A stretch of DNA of 64,000 bases. It comes from Phormidesmis priestleyi ULC007. Its GTDB lineage: Bacteria; Cyanobacteriota; Cyanobacteriia; Leptolyngbyales; Leptolyngbyaceae. The DNA is taken from contig NZ_MPPI01000012.1 of assembly GCF_001895925.1 (NCBI RefSeq), positions 62,001-126,000 on the forward strand, read 5' to 3'. A program made the position numbers and the translations under genes. Positions 26,900-38,867 of the stretch are shown here, one piece after another. Each line of letters opens with the position of its first letter. The stretch's first letter is position 1. Under the pieces are notes generated by a model that saw only the letters and a program-made list of their open reading frames with translations, ran no database searches and had not been told where the DNA came from.

Positions 26900-28405
26900 A
26901 TGAAATCAGCCCGTTCTGCTCGATGTTCTCACACTGCGCTGGCAGTTTTTCTTACCGCAACGACTGTCTTTTTTTCTCTAACCCCGTCTGGCAGTGCTAA
27001 AGCGCCAGTGAAACAGCCTGTTAAGGTGGCACAAGCACCTGGAACGCTCTGCCCTGCTCAGTTGGCGGCACCTATTAATCGCTCGCTCGATCGCGTCTCT
27101 GGTGGTCGTTGGAGCGTGTTAGTGCAAACGCAAGGGGCAGCCCGTCAAACTCTATTCGCTCGAAACCCAAATACTCTGCTGATTCCAGCGTCTAATAATA
27201 AAATTTTTACCACTGCCGCCGCTTTAAAGAAATTGGGTGCCCAATATCGCATTCGCACAACGGTTTACGGCAGTGGCAGCAGCCCTAATCTGGCGACGTT
27301 GAGAATTGTGGGTCATGGCGATCCAAGTTTGACGACGACGCAGTTAGGGGCGATCGCACAGCAGCTCAGTCAACGGGGCATCCGGCAGGTGACTCAACTG
27401 ATCGGCGACGATACCTACTTTCGAGGAGCGTTGACCAATCCTTTTTGGGATGCAGAAGATGCTGGACAAGCTTACGCCGCACCGATTAATGGTTTGATTC
27501 TCAATCAAAATATCATTGGACTGACGGCAGTTCCTCGCCAAGTCGGACAATCGCTACAGGTGAAGTGGGATGATCCCACCGATGCCAATGATTGGCGGCT
27601 CAATAACCAGGGAGTCACCGTTTCAGCGAGTGGCGGCGAATTTTTGGATGCCGATCGCGTTGGCTCTACGATTCGCGTTACGGGGCAACTCCGGGCTGGC
27701 TCTGCATCAGAACTAATCGGCGTTGCCATTCCTAACCCTGGTAACTATTTGGTCAAAAAATTTCGTGATATGTTGACCAGTAACAAGATTGGAGTCACCA
27801 ACTCGACGTTAGTAAAATTCACGCCCGCTCGTGCTGATGAAGTCGAGTTAGCTGCCGTAGAGTCTCCGCCGCTGTCGAGTTTGCTGTTTGAAACCAATCA
27901 AGAAAGCAACAACACCTACGCAGAAGTTTTGCTCAAAACATTGGGACAGAAGCAAAATCCGGCTAGTCAAAACACGACTGAGAGCGGCACGATCGCCGTC
28001 AAATCCATCCTGTCAGATTTGGGAGTCAAAGCCGATCGTTACTCTATGGTTGATGGATCGGGACTCGCCGATCGCAATCGCGCTAGTGCACAGGCGTTTG
28101 TAGAAACGCTGCAAGCCATGACCCAAATTCCTGAAGCCAGTGTGTTTCGGCGATCACTGGCAGTTTCGGGCGTAAGTGGCACCCTAAAAAATCGCTTTCG
28201 CAATACGCCTGCTCAAGGGATTGTGGCTGCAAAAACAGGAACGATTACAGGTGTGGTGGCGCTTTCGGGTTATGTGACCCCGCCTAACTATCCGCCTCTC
28301 GTGTTTAGCGTGATTGCCAATTCTGGTGCCTCAGCCGGAACAGTACGATCGTCCGTCGATGACTTAGTAATCCTACTGACTCGACTGCGAAGTTGTGGAG
28401 GATAA
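26900..28405 (+). CDS. dacB: D-alanyl-D-alanine carboxypeptidase/endopeptidase (PBP4 type)
   Basis: Peptidoglycan hydrolase of family S13, acting in the periplasm on D-Ala-D-Ala ends and cross-links. The ATG at 26900 is chosen since it opens a good signal peptide (LAVFLTATTVFFSLTPSGSA); an upstream TTG at 26795 is in frame. The 501-residue product keeps the three active-site motifs: SxxK in PASNNKIF (Ser about 98), SNN in QESNNTYAEVL, and KTG in AAKTGTITGV (about 445). The large insert between SxxK and SNN matches PBP4. Its last 63 bp are repeated downstream of the first Uma2 gene. Confidence 0.95.
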   Translation: MKSARSARCSHTALAVFLTATTVFFSLTPSGSAKAPVKQPVKVAQAPGTLCPAQLAAPINRSLDRVSGGRWSVLVQTQGAARQTLFARNPNTLLIPASNNKIFTTAAALKKLGAQYRIRTTVYGSGSSPNLATLRIVGHGDPSLTTTQLGAIAQQLSQRGIRQVTQLIGDDTYFRGALTNPFWDAEDAGQAYAAPINGLILNQNIIGLTAVPRQVGQSLQVKWDDPTDANDWRLNNQGVTVSASGGEFLDADRVGSTIRVTGQLRAGSASELIGVAIPNPGNYLVKKFRDMLTSNKIGVTNSTLVKFTPARADEVELAAVESPPLSSLLFETNQESNNTYAEVLLKTLGQKQNPASQNTTESGTIAVKSILSDLGVKADRYSMVDGSGLADRNRASAQAFVETLQAMTQIPEASVFRRSLAVSGVSGTLKNRFRNTPAQGIVAAKTGTITGVVALSGYVTPPNYPPLVFSVIANSGASAGTVRSSVDDLVILLTRLRSCGG

Positions 28406-28431
28406 TAAGCTATCGGGTTTGGTTACTGCCC

Positions 28432-29277
28432 ATGACTCAACAGCTTCTCAACGATGGAGAAATCGTCACTGAGCTTGACATCAGCCATCTGGTCATCGAG
28501 GACGATACCCCTGTGGACAATCTGCAATCTGAGAAGCAGCAACGGCTGCTAGTGGAACCCCTCTACAGTTCCAAGGCGCTGCCGTCACCGTTTCTCGCGG
28601 CTGCCAACGTGGGACTGTTTTACAAACTTAAGGGAGATCCGGTTGTCCCTGATGTCATGCTCAGTCTAGGAGTACAGTGCGCTGACGACTTCTCGAAGAA
28701 ACAGAATCGATCGTATTTTGTGTGGGAGTTTGGCAAGCTGCCAGAGGTCTGCGTTGAGATCGTCTCTAACCAAGAAGGCGACGAACTGACATTAAGTCGG
28801 AAGTCACAGCAGAAGGGAAAGACGATCGTCAAGAAAGATTTGTACGCGCAAATTCGCATTCCCTACTACGTGGTGTTTGACCCTCTAAAGCAGATTCAGG
28901 GTGAACCTGAGATGAATGGGGCGCTGCTGCGGGTCTGGGCAAATTCGGTAGGGCGCTACCTAGAATTAACCCCGCCGCAAGGAGTCAGTGAGGTGGGGCA
29001 GTCGATCTGGTTAGAAGAAGTCGGTTTGGGACTCACGCTCTGGTCAGGAGAGTTCGAGGAAGAAGTGGCGCGGACATGGTTGCGCTGGTGCGTTTACCCC
29101 GAAGGGGGAACTGCTTCGCAACGTGATGGGCAAATCATTCCCACCGGGGCGGAGCGGGCAGAAATTGAGCGACAACGGGCAGAAATTGAGCGACAGCGGG
29201 CAGAAGCCGAGCGACAACGGGCAGAACGGTTAGCCGATCGTCTACGAACACTAGGTGTAGACCCGGACGAAATCTGA
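28432..29277 (+). CDS. Uma2 family protein, copy 1
   Basis: A 281-residue Uma2 family protein (PD-(D/E)XK nuclease-like fold), starting MTQQLLNDGEIVTELDISHL. The core carries GDPVVPDVMLSLGVQ (acidic D) and LPEVCVEIVSNQEGDEL, then YYVVFDPL, which fit the fold. The tail contains an in-frame insert (EGGTASQ) and three AEIERQR-type heptads; the second copy has neither in this form. Uma2 genes are abundant in cyanobacteria and of unknown function; endonuclease activity is a common annotation but not shown. It starts 27 bp after dacB. Confidence 0.85.
   Translation: MTQQLLNDGEIVTELDISHLVIEDDTPVDNLQSEKQQRLLVEPLYSSKALPSPFLAAANVGLFYKLKGDPVVPDVMLSLGVQCADDFSKKQNRSYFVWEFGKLPEVCVEIVSNQEGDELTLSRKSQQKGKTIVKKDLYAQIRIPYYVVFDPLKQIQGEPEMNGALLRVWANSVGRYLELTPPQGVSEVGQSIWLEEVGLGLTLWSGEFEEEVARTWLRWCVYPEGGTASQRDGQIIPTGAERAEIERQRAEIERQRAEAERQRAERLADRLRTLGVDPDEI
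29100..29118. repeat. Short hairpin insert inside Uma2 copy 1
   Basis: CGAAGGGGGAACTGCTTCG pairs CGAAG with CTTCG. Comparison with copy 2 shows a net gain of nine codons at this point. The same hairpin lies in frame in the flavoprotein gene at 38183-38201. Confidence 0.85.
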
Positions 29278-29309
29278 TCAGAACTCATTCGAGTGCGTGA
29301 GCCGCAAAG

Positions 29310-29372
29310 GTGCGATCGTCCGTTGATGACTTGGTAATCCTACTGGCTCGGCTGCGGAGTTGTGAAGGATAA
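29310..29372 (+). pseudogene. Duplicated dacB 3' end (remnant)
   Basis: These 63 bp repeat the last 21 codons of dacB (28343-28405), displaced by 967 bp, and still read open to the TAA (VRSSVDDLVILLARLRSCEG). Seven differences are counted, five of them synonymous. It is the left edge of the duplication that produced the second Uma2 gene. No start codon or body of dacB is present, so it is a non-functional remnant. Confidence 0.88.
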
Positions 29373-29398
29373 TAAGCTATCGAGTTTGGTTACTGCCC

Positions 29399-30175
29399 AT
29401 GACTCAACAGCTTCTCAACGATGAAGAAATCGTCACTGAGCTTGATATCAGCCATCTGGTCATCGAGGACAATACTCCTGTGGACAATTTTCAATCTGAG
29501 GAGCAGCAACGGCTGCTGGTCGAACCGCTCTACAGTTCTAAAGCTCTGCCATCGCCATTTCTTGCCGCCGCAAATGTAGGGTTATTCTACAAACTCAAGG
29601 GTGATCCGATCGTGCCCGACGTGCTGCTAAGTCTGGGCGTGCAGCGAGCGAATGACTTCTCCCAACGGCAAAACCGCTCTTATTTTGTGTGGGAATTTGG
29701 CAAAGTGCCAGAAGTCTGTATCGAAATCGTCTCCAACCAGGAAGGCGATGAATTGACGTTGAGCAAAAAATCGCGGCAGAAAGGCAAGACCACGATTAAA
29801 AAAGAGATCTACGCTCAGATTGGTGTGCGTTACTACGTCGTGTTTGACCCCTTGAAGCAGATTCAAGGACAAGATGAGATGAATGAGGCACTGCTGCGGG
29901 TGTGGTCAATTTCACCGGATGGCTATCCTGAACTGACCCCCCCTGAAGGCATTCACGAGATTGGGCAAGTGATTTGGTTAAACACAGCAGGAATCGGCTT
30001 GACGCTGTGGGAAGGGCAGTTTGAAGAAGAGGTGACGCGACTGTGGTTGCGCTGGTGCGATCGCGATGGGCAAATTATTCCTACCGGAGCGGAGCAAGCA
30101 GAAGTCGAGCGACAACGGGCAGAACGGTTAGCCGATCGTCTACGAACACTAGGTGTAGACCCAGACGAAATTTGA
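29399..30175 (+). CDS. Uma2 family protein, copy 2
   Basis: A 258-residue paralogue of the preceding gene, starting MTQQLLNDEEIVTELDISHL, with the same core (GDPIVPDVLLSLGVQ, EVCIEIVSNQEGDEL, YYVVFDPL). It lacks the small hairpin insert and has one instead of three AEIERQR-type heptads in its tail. The leader (GATAATAAGCTATCG to the ATG) is nearly identical to that of copy 1, so both came from one duplication. Codon differences between the copies are plentiful, so the duplication is not recent. Activity is unproven, as for copy 1. Confidence 0.85.
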   Translation: MTQQLLNDEEIVTELDISHLVIEDNTPVDNFQSEEQQRLLVEPLYSSKALPSPFLAAANVGLFYKLKGDPIVPDVLLSLGVQRANDFSQRQNRSYFVWEFGKVPEVCIEIVSNQEGDELTLSKKSRQKGKTTIKKEIYAQIGVRYYVVFDPLKQIQGQDEMNEALLRVWSISPDGYPELTPPEGIHEIGQVIWLNTAGIGLTLWEGQFEEEVTRLWLRWCDRDGQIIPTGAEQAEVERQRAERLADRLRTLGVDPDEI

Positions 30176-37147: not shown

Positions 37148-37219
37148 GCCGATGTGGCTCAGTGGTAGAGCACTCGATTCGTAATCGAGCGGTCGCGAGT
37201 TCAAATCTCGCCATCGGCT
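37148..37219 (+). tRNA. trnT: tRNA-Thr (anticodon CGT)
   Basis: A 72-nt cloverleaf. Acceptor stem GCCGATG pairs with CATCGGC and T is the discriminator. The D-arm is GCTCAGTGGTAGAGC, the anticodon arm is CTCGA-TTCGTAA-TCGAG with CGT at 37180-37182, and the T-arm is GCGAG-TTCAAAT-CTCGC. The 3' CCA is not encoded. It reads threonine codon ACG. The peptide-synthetase locus begins about 220 bp downstream. Confidence 0.97.
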
Positions 37220-37439: not shown

Positions 37440-38867
37440 ATGCAACACAAGAAGCATGCGTTAGTCATTGGCGGTAGTTTGGCAGGACTGTTAGTGGGTC
37501 GATCCCTGGCAAACCATTTCGAGCGCGTCACCATTGTGGAACGTGACATTTATCCCGATCAGCCTGCACCTCGCAAAGGTGTGCCTCACTCTCGCTTTCC
37601 GCATAGCCTCATGCTGCGGGGACAACAAATTTTAGAACAGTTCTTCCCAGGACTCCGAGCAGAACTCGTTGCAGAGGGTGCGATCGAGGTAGACAGTATG
37701 AAAGACATGGCATTTTTGACCTCCGCAGGATGGACGACTCGGTGTTCCTCAGATTTGCGGCTGTTTACCTGTAGCCGAGACTTATTGGATTGGCGGATTC
37801 GTCATCGATTAGCGACATTTCCCAACGTGCAATTTCTGCAAGGAGCCAGCGTTACCGGATTGCTAACGGATGCAGAACACACGAAAATTGTTGGGGTATC
37901 GCTGCACCGACGTGCGAGTTCTACTCCCCAATCAACCGAGGAACTCTACGCCGACCTGATTGTGGATGCGAGTGGAAAAGCGTCCCACGCGCCGCAGTGG
38001 TTGAGCGCATTGGGATATGATCCACCCCCCGAAACAGAAGTCAATGCGTTTGTGGGCTATGTTGCCCGCATCTACCAACCTCCAGCAGACCTATCGGTAG
38101 ATTGGAAACTGTTGTTTGTGCCAACCGCTCCACCCCAGCGACAACGCGGTGGGGCAATTTTGCCGATCGAGGGCGATTTCTCCGAAGGGGAAACTGCTTC
38201 GCAATGCTCCGATCCCCGTAACACTCGTTGGATTGTGAGTTTAGTTGGGGGCAATCGCGATTATCCTCCCACCGACGAGGCTGGCTTTTTAGCTTTTGCT
38301 CGCAGTCTACCTACCCCAATCTTGGCAGAGGTGATTGAACAAGCTACCCCGCTCACGCCGATTTATGCTTATTACGGCAACGAAAATCGCTTGCGCCATT
38401 ATGACCAACTCTCGGATTCACCCGCCCATTTTATTGCGGTTGGTCATGCGGCTTGCTTGCTGAATCCCACCTATGGACAAGCTATGACGGTTGCTGCACT
38501 TGAAGCCATGACTTTAGATCAATTTTTCCAGCACCATGCGATCGACGATCTCAACCACCATACCCGCCACCTTCGACAACAATTGGCGAAAGCACATCGA
38601 GAAGCTTGGTTAGTTGCAACGGGTGTAGATTACCGTTACCGCAACACGCCGGGCAAACCGATTAGCGCGGCTACTCGATTTGTGAGTTGGTATTGGGACC
38701 AACTGATGGAATTAATGGTCGATCAAGCCAGGGTCTATCGTACTTTTATGGAAGTGCTGCACCTGCTTAAGCCCTCGATCGCGTTGTTTCAACCCTACAT
38801 TTTGAGTCAGGTAGTGTGGCATCGATTCAACAAGCGTTTGAGAAGGTTAAGGATTGGATTAGACTAA
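37440..38867 (+). CDS. FAD-dependent monooxygenase-like enzyme beside the NRPS genes
   Basis: A 475-residue flavoprotein with an N-terminal Rossmann motif (HALVIGGSLAGLLVGRSLA; GGSxAG instead of GxGxxG) and VTIVERDIYPD for ribose binding. The second FAD motif, normally GDAA, reads GHAACLLNPTYGQAMT. It belongs to the broad group of squalene/phenol monooxygenase-like or halogenase-like proteins; no halogenase WxWxIP is present. A short hairpin insert adds SEGETASQ in the middle (about residues 248-255). Same strand, 177 bp before the first peptide synthetase, so a tailoring step on the peptide or its acyl part is likely but inferred. Confidence 0.82.
   Translation: MQHKKHALVIGGSLAGLLVGRSLANHFERVTIVERDIYPDQPAPRKGVPHSRFPHSLMLRGQQILEQFFPGLRAELVAEGAIEVDSMKDMAFLTSAGWTTRCSSDLRLFTCSRDLLDWRIRHRLATFPNVQFLQGASVTGLLTDAEHTKIVGVSLHRRASSTPQSTEELYADLIVDASGKASHAPQWLSALGYDPPPETEVNAFVGYVARIYQPPADLSVDWKLLFVPTAPPQRQRGGAILPIEGDFSEGETASQCSDPRNTRWIVSLVGGNRDYPPTDEAGFLAFARSLPTPILAEVIEQATPLTPIYAYYGNENRLRHYDQLSDSPAHFIAVGHAACLLNPTYGQAMTVAALEAMTLDQFFQHHAIDDLNHHTRHLRQQLAKAHREAWLVATGVDYRYRNTPGKPISAATRFVSWYWDQLMELMVDQARVYRTFMEVLHLLKPSIALFQPYILSQVVWHRFNKRLRRLRIGLD
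38183..38201. repeat. Short hairpin insert inside the flavoprotein gene
   Basis: CGAAGGGGAAACTGCTTCG, one base different from the insert in Uma2 copy 1, lies in frame and codes for EGETAS. Confidence 0.8.

Follow-up and report, generated by a model that had tools for sequence, protein, structure and literature searches.

SDR5 is described as a small dispersed repeat of cyanobacteria that is inserted precisely inside HIP1, the octamer GCGATCGC, with the insertion placed between HIP1 nucleotides 3 and 4 (PMC4390886). In-frame fusion into many unrelated proteins is described for the Rickettsia palindromic elements (RPE), which measure 105-146 bp and form long stem-loops (PMC2229807). A further group, the GTAG- and CGTC-tagged REPs, consists of dispersed repeats of 20-40 bp that occur in cyanobacteria as well and lie in part in coding regions (PMC3733652). 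At the level of titles and abstracts, with the subscription literature mostly outside the scope, no paper was found on a HIP1-inserted coding repeat in Leptolyngbyaceae.

The window, by which we mean the whole 64-kb stretch of DNA analysed here, belongs to a 5.68-Mb genome and carries two neighbouring copies of a Uma2 gene. An earlier note on this DNA had reported a nine-codon in-frame insert present in copy 1 and missing from copy 2, and this is borne out: the difference consists of 27 bases at 29095-29121. Copy 1 reads tggtGCGTT-TACCCCGAAGGGGGAACTGCTTCGCAA-CGTgatggg, while the corresponding site of copy 2 reads tggtGCGATCGCgatggg; the respective peptides are WC-VYPEGGTASQ-RDGQII and WC-D-RDGQII. 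A 31-mer with the insert occurs once in the window, against 0 expected from shuffles. The ORF list begins copy 1 at an upstream TTG (28393); the ATG at 28432 is used as its start here. The features concerned are the following.

28432 to 29277, plus strand: Uma2 copy 1, from its ATG start (Pfam PF05685, E 6.1e-07; aligned with 32 homologues)
29090 to 29094, plus strand: left-hand bases of the interrupted HIP1 site, here GCGTT and mostly GCGAT elsewhere, from the comparison of copies
29095 to 29121, plus strand: 27-bp element within Uma2 copy 1, missing from 29 of the 29 other loci read
29122 to 29124, plus strand: right-hand bases of the interrupted HIP1 site, here CGT and mostly CGC elsewhere, from the comparison of copies
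29158 to 29220, plus strand: three ERQR heptads of copy 1, from the sequence and the homologue alignment, independent of the insert
29399 to 30175, plus strand: Uma2 copy 2, with one heptad and without the insert, from the ORF list and the homologue alignment
30057 to 30064, plus strand: uninterrupted HIP1 octamer GCGATCGC, which marks the empty site of copy 2, read from the sequence
38178 to 38204, plus strand: the window's other copy of the element, lying in frame within a flavin-monooxygenase-like gene (37440-38867), at a 16-residue alignment gap against MonCI

The stretch 28340-28431 ahead of copy 1, in which the upstream gene ends, recurs at about 29309-29398 before copy 2, and the tandem duplication therefore included the tail of the upstream gene. 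This single 5.7-Mb genome gives 79 Uma2-family matches.

We are confident that the insert is one copy of a 27-bp dispersed element, SDR5-like in behaviour, that enters the middle of HIP1 octamers (GCGAT^CGC or an adjacent register). Loci L055-L100 were searched with up to four substitutions, which gave 41 distinct copies; 39 were kept after two histidine kinases (L093 and L094) that match through a motif of their own had been dropped. The consensus of the 39 is GCGAT-TACCCCGAAGGGGGAACTGCTTCGCA(C/A/T)-CGC. They are present in many unrelated genes, in both orientations, and all are cyanobacterial, mostly from the filamentous Leptolyngbyaceae where named. The constant length of 27 bp is partly built in, because the searches tolerated substitutions only; two length variants are known, the intergenic L058, which is outside the 39 copies, and L088 (26 bp).

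In this genome the 26-base core occurs three times with up to three mismatches, and a looser pattern adds a fourth copy, the intergenic L058 of different length; the reversed control gave 0 in both cases. With at most one mismatch, the element was found in 11 of 97 genomes, all within the 42 of the same family and in none of the 55 others (reversed control 0). With up to three mismatches, 16 of the 42 family genomes hold 33 matches, a count that still includes L093 and L094, versus one for the reversed control, and individual family genomes hold 0 to 5. An exact scan of contigs of 84,980 species returned 12 stretches, with titles naming Leptolyngbyaceae, Leptolyngbya, Myxacorys, Pantanalinema, Phormidium tenue or simply Cyanobacteria bacterium, and an exact search of viral contigs returned none. 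A search of plasmids matched 14 records, just two of them over most of the query and the remaining 12 being short rhizobial or Paracoccus pieces with E 2 or worse; a plasmid of Leptolyngbya NIES-3755 carries the element inside an annotated sigma-factor gene, and a Uma2 piece gave one weak match against plasmids. Chance likeness was rejected, as 0 occurrences are expected in the window and the reversed controls gave 0, across all collected loci as well, except for the one match in the 42 family genomes. The short pattern CTGCTTCGCAA, with nine matches against eight in its reversed control, is uninformative alone. When other HIP1-flanked families were sought in the 0.91 Mb of collected loci, a biased sample, the other rows listed were homologous genes again.

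Compared by described behaviour and not by sequence, SDR5 appears to be the nearest known relative. Both are very small dispersed cyanobacterial repeats, here 27 bp with 39 copies in unrelated contexts, and both show precise insertion in HIP1, in our case with five genes whose empty sites hold the exact octamer; the likeness is limited by imperfect empty sites in psbA and by a second site in the alr0857 family without the octamer. The 27-bp element was found in Leptolyngbyaceae-type genomes only and lies mostly in reading frames. It shares with the RPE in-frame insertion in protein genes (33 of 39 copies by hand sorting), but its 27 bp fall short of the 105-146 bp of that class, its hairpin is weak where the RPE stem-loop is long, and its target, HIP1, is fixed. 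Like the GTAG and CGTC REPs it is a short dispersed repeat of cyanobacteria, partly in coding regions; however, neither tetranucleotide stands at the ends of the consensus and the copies per genome are very few. Set beside a MITE, which has terminal inverted repeats, a target-site duplication and a parent transposon, its ends are HIP1 halves, and some of the copies but not all would fit a 2-bp AT duplication.

In five genes, namely Uma2, a CrtISO-like gene, an FtsJ/TlyA-type gene, a Rieske gene and the alr0857 family, comparison of filled and empty sites shows that exact HIP1 sites have gained 27 bp net. The earlier note had taken the Uma2 pair to show directly how a palindromic repeat can enter a protein without breaking it. 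The entry of a repeat with the frame kept open stands, but the pair alone gives no direction, and outgroups were therefore needed. With Uma2 copy 2 as the query against the 42 same-family genomes, 30 loci were read among many more matches listed; one of them (L101) is the window's own pair, which leaves 29 others. All 29, and the paralogues L045 and L046 as well, are free of the insert, and nine of the 29 (L102-L106, L108, L110, L112 and L116) have GCGATCGC at the insert site, as in copy 2. Consequently, the insert is derived in Uma2 copy 1.

The second gene, which we presume to be CrtISO-like and which Pfam assigns to Amino_oxidase, is filled in this genome (GCGCGTTTACCCC...GCAACGCGGC) and empty in a sister species of the same genus with 93% protein identity (GCGCGATCGCGGC). 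The insert is in none of the 29 other loci read; the octamer is in four of them (L132, L137, L142 and L146), the sister species included. Near the C-terminal part of the CrtISO-like genes of some relatives (L156-L160) there are in-frame, simple-repeat-like stretches of about 15 to 45 codons that differ from genome to genome.

The FtsJ/TlyA-type gene bears the element in Cyanobacteria bacterium FACHB-502 (L075). The insert is missing from all 29 readable loci of 30 homologous ones (L205 was not read), and the octamer stands at the site in eight; L199 matches closely on both flanks. In the Rieske gene (L070, genome G019) the element is antisense. Here eight loci were read out of matches in 28 genomes: GCGATCGC is at the empty site in three of the four nearest homologues (L223, L224 and L225, not L250), and three distant homologues align differently at the site. 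In the alr0857 family (NCBIfam), L061 and L086 are filled, ATGAGCGTT-27 bp-CGCAC(C/T)GAG, and L077 is empty at the same site, ATGAGCGATCGCATTGAG, with AGCGATCGC. The gene of L077 has an insert of its own closer to the N-terminus; at that point L061 and L086 are shorter by nine codons, yet without an octamer. This separate position means that the family was hit twice.

The model of insertion at HIP1 fits psbA less exactly. The element-bearing psbA (L092:444-1553) lies on a 1.2-Mb replicon of genome G005, with coordinates agreeing with Kovacikia minuta CCNUW1 NZ_CP083583.1, and its D1 tail reads DLASGEAQPLTPKGELLRTALAAPAIFS. The insert is missing from 29 of 29 other loci read, and CCGATCGC is found at the site in three of them (L169, L170 and L187); the nearest relatives lack the octamer, with CCCATTGC in L163 and CCGATTGC in L164. 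The tail that holds the insert is presumably the segment removed after Ala344 during D1 maturation.

The HIP1 octamer is abundant in many cyanobacterial genomes, and the window holds 72 of them, about one per 889 bases. Excision of 27 bases at the consensus cut restores CGATCG in only 20 of the 39 copies. The base preceding the left T is A in 25, T in 10, C in two and G in two; the base following the right A is C in 15, A in 13, T in nine and G in two. Because the bases flanking the cut vary, several registers around the central AT fit, of which an insertion between HIP1 nucleotides 3 and 4 may be one. A 2-bp AT duplication around a 25-bp core suits the copies with ATCGC at the right, not the remainder. 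Directed cutting at HIP1 has been raised as an explanation of SDR5 (Elhai 2015, PMC4390886). For the 27-bp element, cutting at HIP1 would be followed by insertion or patching, and insertions would take place in either orientation; a staggered cut might begin the process, and a trans-acting factor might perhaps carry it out.

It is possible, although we think it rather unlikely, that the copies spread via ectopic recombination or templated repair between HIP1 sites and not by transposition-like insertion. Ends made of HIP1 halves, variable bases at the cut and the very low copy number of 0 to 5 per family genome would all suit such a process, but the shared flank of just about four bases per side offers little for homologous exchange.

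Whichever way the element enters HIP1, its hairpin is weak. The earlier note had called the insert a hairpin; the stem is just 4 bp, CCCC/GGGG, pairing in 35 to 37 of 37 copies (L088 and L090 excluded) around a variable loop. DNA folding is unremarkable, with z -0.71 for the native stretch, matched by 42 of 200 shuffles, and z -0.82 to -1.77 for typed variants of the consensus; these values do not support a strong hairpin. The heptads do differ between the Uma2 copies, but by two and not by three as had been claimed, copy 1 having three of the ERQR type and copy 2 one. It is most improbable that the insert and the extra heptads arose in a single expansion of the copy-1 tail. Both are in copy 1, with about 40 bp between them, yet heptad number varies widely, and without regard to the insert, among 33 aligned Uma2 homologues, including insert-free ones such as L106 and L130. 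The heptad difference is a separate expansion or contraction of the coiled-coil tail. The earlier interpretation is partly supported; it overlooked HIP1 as the target and the dispersed family to which the insert belongs.

Since the length of 27 bp is divisible by three and the consensus is open in five of its six readings, entry of the element lengthens a gene by nine codons and leaves its frame intact. The 39 copies were sorted into frames by hand and not blind, and 33 lie in frame within ORFs. L059, L080 and L089 appear intergenic, L097 is at a gene start and L090 is doubtful. The frame counts below cover 29 coding copies, without L090, whose right flank is not HIP1-like, and L086, an orthologue of L061, and with five loci of one small gene entered once.

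DR frame, sense (D-YPEGGTAS-H/Q-R): 16 copies, in Uma2, flavin monooxygenase, CrtISO-like, AAA_35, Suc_Fer-like, protein kinase, EAD4-NACHT, ChrB, GST, GNAT, HEPN_Swt1, FtsJ/TlyA type, histidine kinase, WD40, DUF697 GTPase and alr0857 (L061)
DR frame, antisense: at most one (L097, probably just ahead of the start codon)
AIA frame, sense (TPKGELLR): four, in psbA, transglutaminase-like, WD40 and L091, an ORF without a family match
AIA frame, antisense (RSSSPFG): six, in Rieske, ECF sigma, TPR, PMT_2, IS1 transposase (behind its domain) and L063, an ORF without a family match
RS frame, sense (PRRGNCFA): two, in alr0857 of L077 and the small gene of five loci
RS frame, antisense, which would stop translation: none

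Sense and antisense copies stand at 16:1 in the DR frame versus 4:6 in the AIA frame (Fisher p 0.004, or 0.0009 without L097, from a small sample sorted non-blind); a general orientation bias is absent in the AIA frame. In the long ORFs of the collected loci, a redundant sample, HIP1 is used 271 times in the AIA, 187 in the DR and 88 in the RS frame, from which about five sense DR copies in 29 would be expected, against the 16 observed (p 4e-6). Since 16 of 17 DR copies but only four of 10 AIA copies are sense, selection on the protein probably filters the copies and keeps mainly one reading. Purifying selection would then retain mainly D-YPEGGTAS(H/Q)-R, a polar, turn-rich peptide that may be tolerated within loops or between domains.

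We give very little credence to YPEGGTAS being a favoured peptide motif that protein selection spread, or that arose repeatedly, rather than a DNA element: one reading is dominant (16 of 29 coding copies, each locus once), but the same DNA is also found in the other reading classes, in reverse orientation (Rieske, ECF sigma, TPR and others) and, as L080, L089 and L058, outside genes. Least credible of all is the reversal that the earlier note had itself raised, in which an insert ancestral in Uma2 was deleted from copy 2 and the remaining homologues; a window with two copies only lacks direction by itself, but this was rejected by the insert-free state of all 29 other loci and of L045 and L046, and by the identical element in unrelated genes whose orthologues are empty.

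Two predicted structures show where the insert lies. AlphaFold gives Uma2 copy 1 a mean pLDDT of 65.6 (residues 1-102 are below 50 and only the C-terminal part was used); the insert forms part of a coil that follows the last long strand (215-223) and precedes the C-terminal helix (241-275). The model of the FtsJ/TlyA-type protein (mean pLDDT 86.8) has it after helix 139-146 and before strand 161-164, and the pLDDT of the block is 71-73. Both models fit a position in surface loops. In the GST and the FtsJ/TlyA-type protein the insert is at or beside alignment gaps against solved structures, and the kinase L066 shows only slight gapping of the local alignment at the insert.

It seems to us an evenly balanced possibility that HIP1 is where a frame-neutral mobile element lands, adding nine codons to proteins as diverse as the photosystem II D1 precursor, a CrtISO-like oxidoreductase and an rRNA-methyltransferase-like protein, with selection keeping mostly one reading. 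If so, these genomes would hold a peptide tag spread by natural transposition and a lasting record of the loops that accept one, a natural linker-scanning experiment on cyanobacterial proteins, the C-terminal tail of the D1 precursor included. Exact pairs of filled and empty sites in conserved genes make the insertion step concrete, in that target, net length, orientation and selection become measurable, and they bear on how very short repeats spread and on the role of HIP1.

In five genomes or MAGs (L064, L065 as its second copy, L077, L078 and L096) the small gene has the element at one and the same position, and an old insertion can thus persist. A single conserved reading frame runs on both sides of the element, with third codon positions differing most; in the L077 copy the frame is lost soon past it. 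No family was found for this gene in Pfam (three tested) or NCBIfam (two tested). In the sister species, the 26-bp variant L088 (G001:C107) splits a TPR gene into two frames. The flavin-monooxygenase-like gene at 37440-38867, host of the second copy in the window, is similar to the flavin epoxidases MonCI (E 1.3e-53) and Lsd18, and a tRNA-Thr lies nearby at 37148-37219.
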